Positions 14,242-45,313 of a stretch of DNA of 45,775 nt are shown piece by piece; the first letter of the stretch is position 1; the number at the start of each line of letters is the position of its first letter. The position numbers were made by a program, and so were the translations under genes. The notes under the pieces were generated by a model that saw only the letters and a program-made list of their open reading frames with translations, was not told the origin of the DNA and made no database searches. The stretch is taken from assembly GCA_002284615.2 (NCBI GenBank), contig MU069577.1:395743-441517 (forward strand), read 5' to 3'. The DNA comes from Dunaliella salina (lineage: Eukaryota > Chlorophyta > Chlorophyceae > Chlamydomonadales > Dunaliellaceae).

Positions 14242-14328
14242 TCAAAGCATTGTGAAATGGGCCTTGAGCTGCTTGCGGAGCTCCAGGCTCTCATGGTGCT
14301 CTGGGAAAAGCTCCAAAGACTTGGTCAC
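14242..14328 (-). CDS. BBS8: BBS8 terminal exon
   Basis: This last exon encodes VTKSLELFPEHHESLELRKQ then LKAHFTML and a TGA stop. It matches the family C-terminus (FPxHxxxxxLxKQLxxxFxxL), whose final residues are characteristic of BBS8. The acceptor is acgcag|gtgacc. The usual algal TGTAA poly(A) signal is not obvious in the first 150 bp after the stop. A copy of an interspersed repeat starts about 120 bp downstream. Confidence 0.93.
   Translation of the reverse strand: MTKSLELFPEHHESLELRKQLKAHFTML

Positions 14329-45313: not shown

Follow-up and report, generated by a model that had tools for sequence, protein, structure and literature searches.

The locus examined here raises the question of whether tandem arrays that carry exon edges together with splice sites, and that border many exons of a single gene, reflect anything beyond general tandem duplication. 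The window, that is, the whole stretch of 45,775 nucleotides analysed, corresponds to positions 395743–441517 of its contig in an assembly of 284.9 Mb with 1403 contigs. With minus-strand translation pieces joined by eye as the query, 208 proteins matched the translation of the gene at E ≤ 1e-3 (the best 120 of the 208 being listed), and solved chains named BBS8/TTC8 matched at E values of 3.4e-67 and 3e-66, identifying a minus-strand BBS8/TTC8 gene. Exons were placed by tblastn with 60 homologues, and their borders were then refined to AG and GT. The eleven exons so obtained, numbered as in the original prediction, join into a single stop-terminated open frame of 357 residues and bear out the earlier description of an eleven-exon BBS8 gene:

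45236..45313, minus strand, BBS8 exon 1, from homology and splice sites
42223..42343, minus strand, BBS8 exon 2, from homology and splice sites
40496..40591, minus strand, BBS8 exon 3, from homology and splice sites
35560..35652, minus strand, BBS8 exon 4, from homology and splice sites
34561..34641, minus strand, BBS8 exon 5, no junction array found
26806..26906, minus strand, BBS8 exon 6, from homology and splice sites
25485..25568, minus strand, BBS8 exon 7, no junction array found
22448..22535, minus strand, BBS8 exon 8, from homology and splice sites
18288..18436, minus strand, BBS8 exon 9, from homology and splice sites
15827..15923, minus strand, BBS8 exon 10, from homology and splice sites
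14242..14328, minus strand, BBS8 exon 11, stop-bearing, from homology and splice sites, no junction array found

No coding exon was found upstream of exon 1, where the neighbouring 20 kb reads N. In a tree of 64 BBS8 proteins, that of the window grouped with marine metagenome proteins, and together with Ostreobium it fell within a nine-row set with support of 93/95, which is below the starred level; on this placement the source is probably a green alga. When each junction is read at its exon-proximal site, the resulting protein aligns with BBS8 homologues; on this ground the exon-proximal site was taken as the working one and, judged from protein homology, is probably the site used.

Extra junction copies, each consisting of an exon edge plus its splice site, adjoin seven of the eleven exons. 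They number 38 at seven junctions: five at the acceptor of exon 2, 15 at the donor of exon 3, two at the donor of exon 4, four at the acceptor of exon 6, two at the acceptor of exon 8, four at the acceptor of exon 9 and six at the donor of exon 10. The arrays, including a probable eighth, are as follows:

42344..42990, minus strand, exon 2 acceptor array, extra acceptors at 42452, 42610, 42723, 42799 and 42909
40623..41038, minus strand, probable exon 3 acceptor array, 93–94 bp units, partial copies at about 40961, 40868, 40775 and 40682
39782..40495, minus strand, exon 3 donor array, 43-bp unit, 15 extra donors
35100..35559, minus strand, exon 4 donor region, two diverged copies with donors at 35330 and 35145
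26907..27475, minus strand, exon 6 acceptor array, 103–125 bp unit, extra acceptors at 27017, 27142, 27267 and 27370
22550..22900, minus strand, weak exon 8 acceptor array, units of about 40 bp, two recognised copies at 22871 and 22831
18437..18833, minus strand, exon 9 acceptor array, 91–104 bp spacing, extra acceptors at 18527, 18627, 18721 and 18825
15192..15826, minus strand, exon 10 donor array, unit of about 79 bp, donors at 15747, 15664, 15584, 15426, 15342 and 15263

A 40-nt probe centred on the junction recovered four copies at the exon 2 acceptor, 15 at the exon 3 donor, four each at the exon 6 and exon 9 acceptors and six at the exon 10 donor, and none at 16 of the 21 junctions; longer or adapted probes yielded the fifth copy at exon 2 and the pairs at exons 4 and 8, for the total of 38. 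By BLAST self-comparison, repeats straddle 8 of the 21 junctions, that of exon 8 with only 8–10 nt on each side. Five arrays are clear (acceptors of exons 2, 6 and 9; donors of exons 3 and 10), and those of exons 4 and 8 are weak. Arrays at seven of eleven exons had been predicted, multiplying acceptors at exons 2, 6, 8 and 9 and donors at exons 3, 4 and 10; copies were indeed found at these junctions, the two weak arrays being the reservation, and the earlier estimate of roughly 45 extra copies was near the 38 counted, or 42 with the partial copies at the exon 3 acceptor.

The BBS8 copies contain part of an exon only, never a whole one; those of the exon 9 array each include about 60 nt of exon. 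In the exon 2 array, GCAG/G (the slash marking the junction) is kept in all five copies at a divergence of 20–33% over 60 nt. The 15 copies of the exon 3 donor array, 0–24% diverged, all retain CAG/GT, and GT is kept in 6/6 copies at exon 10, whereas the exon 6 copy at 27370 has lost its AG. At its acceptor, exon 3 probably bears a further array of four partial copies, one of which has lost AG. Probes moved 10 nt towards the intron scored 16–18 there, against a control maximum of 8 with 60 probes; junction-centred or exon-shifted probes gave no copies at a score of at least 14, and the 30-nt exon head alone scored only 6/30, and the units therefore hold at most about 10 exon bases. The claim that arrays always lie on one side of an exon is thus doubtful: exon 3 is probably two-sided, and seven arrays would fall on seven separate exons by chance with P = 0.25.

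Junction arrays are not peculiar to BBS8. A first scan of CCT and kinesin loci with 30-nt probes detected arrays at several exon edges, with a cross-locus match in 1 of 358 cases. The genome sample comprised 61 exons (12 CCT, 27 kinesin, 12 dynein AAA_6 and the best 10 of 66 kinase matches; loci L008–L068) with their flanks, some of which hold N runs; a few matches hold internal stops and probably span introns. Borders in this sample are predictions, not annotations; they were set blind to repeats, with the ends of the matches, the reading frame and splice scores as guides. Junctions with low splice scores and probes of low complexity or bearing N were skipped, leaving 110 of 122 junctions in this first set and 26 of 28 in the second set described below. 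Nineteen of the 110 testable junctions (10/53 acceptors and 9/57 donors) had a copy within 600 bp, or 15 at a stricter threshold, compared with 1/56 for exon middles and 1/569 for junction probes matched against other loci. The rate of such copies dropped to 0–6% at 50–60 nt into the exons. The rarity of matches between loci excludes introner elements for this sample.

Individual loci illustrated the range of the pattern. In the dynein region on contig C2, arrays were present at five junctions and in four of the five sampled exons (L049, L052 on both sides, L054 and L057). The kinesin exon L021 (C94:496938-497159) has nine extra donors; most of its downstream copies also bear an acceptor-like CTGGCAG and resemble tiny exons with both sites. 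At another kinesin match, L041 (C104:353323-353508), ten copies with a spacing of 117 bp match the middle of the kinesin stretch, and the true exon border may fall inside the match.

A second set of 14 kinase exons (L069–L082) was picked by hand from ranks 14–41 of the kinase list. Junction copies were found at 11 of its 26 junctions but also in 5 of its 14 exon middles, and some of these kinase matches may themselves be exon copies. At L077 (C94:233891-235834), copies of the kinase exon flank the predicted acceptor on both sides, possibly as a run of whole or partial exons. The suspicious loci L076 and L077 were retained in the counts. Whole-exon duplication of the mutually exclusive type does not describe BBS8, in which the copies are partial and distances across the arrays show no frame preference (see below); some loci of the second set may differ in this respect.

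The extra copies lay exclusively on the intron side in 24 of 24 arrays (19 from the genome sample and five from BBS8) and in 9 of 11 arrays of the second set, with L076 and L077 as the exceptions, or 33 of 35 overall. Two-sided exons were about as frequent as chance would predict (2 versus 1.5, and 2 versus 2.1). Only 26 of 70 copy distances were multiples of three. There is therefore no in-frame preference by which the copies would be kept as coding isoforms, and this possibility was rejected.

The spare splice sites seem to be constrained. In six BBS8 arrays (exons 2, 4, 6, 9 and 10 and the exon 3 donor), the AG or GT core differed at 1 of 72 positions, whereas column pairs in these alignments predict roughly 16 (P about 0.001–0.002). 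The first genome set alone gave 2 changes in 82 against 13 expected (P = 0.0009). For 24 arrays, core mismatch was 1.6%, compared with 14% at positions up to 8 nt away (P = 2e-5); shifting the probes by up to 14 nt left P between 2e-5 and 6e-4; with 116 probes placed in intron arrays away from junctions, mismatch at the centre was not lowered. The effect was weaker in the second set alone (7% versus 17%, P = 0.04; 3 of 25 copies changed). All 35 arrays together gave a core mismatch of 3.3%, versus 15.3% within 8 nt (P = 5e-6), with a core change in 6 of the 35. Independence is assumed between arrays in these core tests and between copies in the Fisher test. The probe and threshold of the 24-array and 35-array tests recovered only two of five exon 2 copies and four of six exon 10 copies, and the 35-array test was performed without the weak BBS8 arrays (exon 3 acceptor, exon 4 and exon 8); among the BBS8 copies thus left out, one, at the exon 3 acceptor, had lost AG.

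Given that a working copy cannot lose its core and only the decoy lineage could do so, a free decoy should show about half the flanking divergence. Core mismatch in the 35 arrays was below this half rate (P = 4e-4). In addition, the core was changed in 6 of 95 copies, compared with 111 of 507 other AG or GT dinucleotides in the same stretches (P = 2e-4). Such preservation of the AG and GT of spare sites is unexpected under simple decay.

The reading that we prefer, at a probability of roughly 0.6, combines frequent tandem duplication, retention of the exon-proximal junction and conservation of the intron-side decoys. The simplest history would be one in which duplications are frequent and the survivors are those that left the exon-proximal junction intact. 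Short segments of about 40–230 bp would be duplicated in tandem very often in the introns sampled, and a gene would survive a duplication spanning an exon edge provided that its exon-side junction remained unbroken. Spare copies of a donor would then come to lie downstream, in the intron, and those of an acceptor upstream, with the array subsequently growing on the intron side. The exon-proximal copy would make the conserved protein, and the remaining copies would be decoys that stay in the intron and are spliced out with it. Most likely, the decoys would still be seen by the spliceosome or would be kept intact indirectly. For the latter case we propose a second-order selection: array contraction or conversion would regularly turn a decoy into the working site, and haplotypes with broken decoys would keep losing the gene.

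An explanation that credits the spare sites with a function of their own is possible but remains tentative. The spliceosome might bind or use them. They could, for instance, help to recruit it to short exons that lie in long introns, or serve as AG/GT stepping stones (the slash again marking the junction) for removal of an intron in several steps. Selected splice-site redundancy had been listed among the options in the original prediction, and it gains support from the preserved AG and GT, a conservation at two-base resolution. The donor scores of the copies point in the same direction, being equal to that of the real donor in 44 of 57 cases, lower in 12 and higher in 1 (not weighted by array), as does the finding that 10 of 11 donor junctions with arrays end in AG, versus 34 of 60 without (P = 0.04). 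Acceptor arrays, however, show no bias for GT at the exon start (5/13 versus 16/55), and the pyrimidine tract is not significantly conserved in the copies (0.69 versus 0.59, P = 0.12). The broader proposition, that selection maintains arrays of intact spare sites behind a considerable fraction of the exon borders in this genome, either as a renewal reservoir or as a splicing device, is in our view possible, though less likely than not. If it were true, the reservoir would renew the working site through unequal exchange or conversion, and either form would constitute an undescribed layer of gene architecture.

Under a purely neutral process, rampant duplication would strike junctions in proportion, selection would act on the exon-proximal copy alone and the decoys would drift. 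Several results are consistent with this account. Local direct repeats make up 27.8% of the BBS8 gene, and when the exons were shifted along it, a mean of 5.5 junctions was straddled, compared with the 8 of 21 observed (P = 0.22); raw repeat overlap at junctions in BBS8 alone therefore proves nothing beyond array density. In the genome sample, 96 of 695 intron positions (13.8%) lie in local repeats, and raw coverage at junctions (17.3%) was not significantly higher (P = 0.18), so that an attraction of duplications to junctions is not proven. General tandem duplication thus explains much of the BBS8 pattern, and in view of the share of sequence in local repeats (28% for the gene, 14% for sampled intron positions), the earlier assertion that minisatellite growth alone was unlikely to produce it was too strong.

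The exonic parts of the copies also behave much as one constrained plus one free lineage would. They differ by 0.150, 0.086 and 0.189 at codon positions 1, 2 and 3 (third versus first and second, P = 0.003), and the intron part by 0.205; the low value at second positions is what a working exon as the source would lead one to expect. In the second set, first and third positions were alike (0.179 and 0.178). For BBS8 copies, the rough ratio of non-synonymous to synonymous change was 0.39, one row of the exon 3 array being misaligned.

Given that duplication inserts copies without overwriting their neighbours, we hold that a fair comparison counts each array once. The intron background then falls to 5.4%, against which junctions, at 17.3%, are about threefold over-represented (binomial P = 7e-6); against a doubled background, chosen because the working copy should decay more slowly, P is 0.03. 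Overlap no commoner at junctions than elsewhere had been named in advance as the result that would count against the prediction; it was obtained for raw coverage and not for collapsed arrays. This threefold enrichment, together with a core that changes at less than half the rate of its neighbours and less often than other AG or GT dinucleotides, makes an entirely neutral origin unlikely. Overall, the earlier observation is partly confirmed and its interpretation partly supported.

The cause originally favoured, intron birth of the type proposed by Rogers, in which introns arise from tandem duplication of AGGT-bearing exon segments with later expansion, is improbable in BBS8. Many junctions read CAG/G, and array-bearing donors usually end in AG, as this model would have it. 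Its signature within one intron is that the end of the upstream exon recurs at the acceptor and the start of the downstream exon at the donor; such homology between donor and acceptor was not found as a property of the ten BBS8 introns, seven of which scored no higher than controls. The three scores above control were on the acceptor side, in introns 4 (16 versus 9), 10 (13 versus 8) and 9 (9 versus 5). From their coordinates, those of introns 4 and 10 would be explained by overlap with the donor array of the same intron, and the 9/30 of intron 9 falls among the control values seen for other introns. Comparisons on the same side reached 30/30 in BBS8 introns.

Mis-joining of haplotypes or repeats during assembly is very improbable as the source of the arrays: a run of 441 N next to an array of 84-bp units in the window and a few exact copies (one 40/40 copy at L049 and some exon 3 donor copies) would fit it, but BBS8 copies are mostly 8–33% diverged and so are not plain assembler duplicates, and the units differ from junction to junction, in many genes on many contigs. 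The N run, either a gap or withheld sequence, lies in intron 8 (window 19868–20308), and the size of the adjoining tandem array is uncertain.

Among the literature matches listed, none describes arrays that carry splice junctions at numerous exons within one gene or one genome, and the pattern goes unmentioned in the accessible portions of two Cymbomonas genome descriptions. Gao and Lynch (2009, cited in PMC3443670) reportedly found internal duplications with splice sites to be frequent; arrays of multiple copies at many junctions of one gene are not known from that work. The closest parallel in form is the human gene IFI6 (6-16), with a minisatellite that contains multiple splice donors (Turri et al. 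1995, cited in PMC4526556). In both cases several donor sites are provided by tandem units located at the end of an exon, and the splice site in each unit equals or closely resembles the working one. According to the available part of that source, IFI6 is a single gene with donors only, two downstream units of which are used for isoforms, whereas here many genes, both acceptors and donors, units of 40–230 bp and no in-frame bias are involved.

Intron gain by tandem duplication, treated for potato (PMC4974935), fission yeast (PMC3629103) and Drosophila (PMC2891723) and in a review (PMC3443670), likewise involves a duplicated segment with splice signals. In the portions of these papers at hand its outcome is a new intron, whereas the arrays described here multiply junctions already in place, within existing introns, on the same side and without clear cross-homology. 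New introns of Daphnia share the involvement of exon ends in direct repeats (PMC4202315), but the excerpt available describes footprints of break repair of 4–12 bp rather than arrays of 40–230 bp units with splice sites. Introners, the subject of PMC9860276, also produce intron-linked repetition throughout a genome. Their sequence is common to many genes, unlike the junction probes used here, which hardly ever match other loci.

If the preferred reading of duplication with conserved decoys is right, these loci would provide natural experiments by the dozen, each with a working splice site next to a number of almost identical sites that normally go unused. Two questions would then become testable: how the spliceosome chooses among candidates of nearly equal quality, and whether introns grow and alternative splicing arises through tandem duplication of exon edges. 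Such loci are likely to cause errors in gene prediction and read mapping.

Other repetitive features were noted in the window. Long TG/CA dinucleotide runs lie within about 160 bases of BBS8 exons or junction arrays, at 16014–16178, 25190–25324, 27511–27674, 42099–42173 and 43006–43103. Open reading frames at 12034–12624 and 8071–8556 have similar peptide stretches in common and probably represent a dispersed repeat; 26 of the 52 relatives of the former are EukProt entries labelled Pelagomonas calceolata. Outside BBS8, positions 2505–3871 hold a minisatellite with nested units of 18–125 bp.
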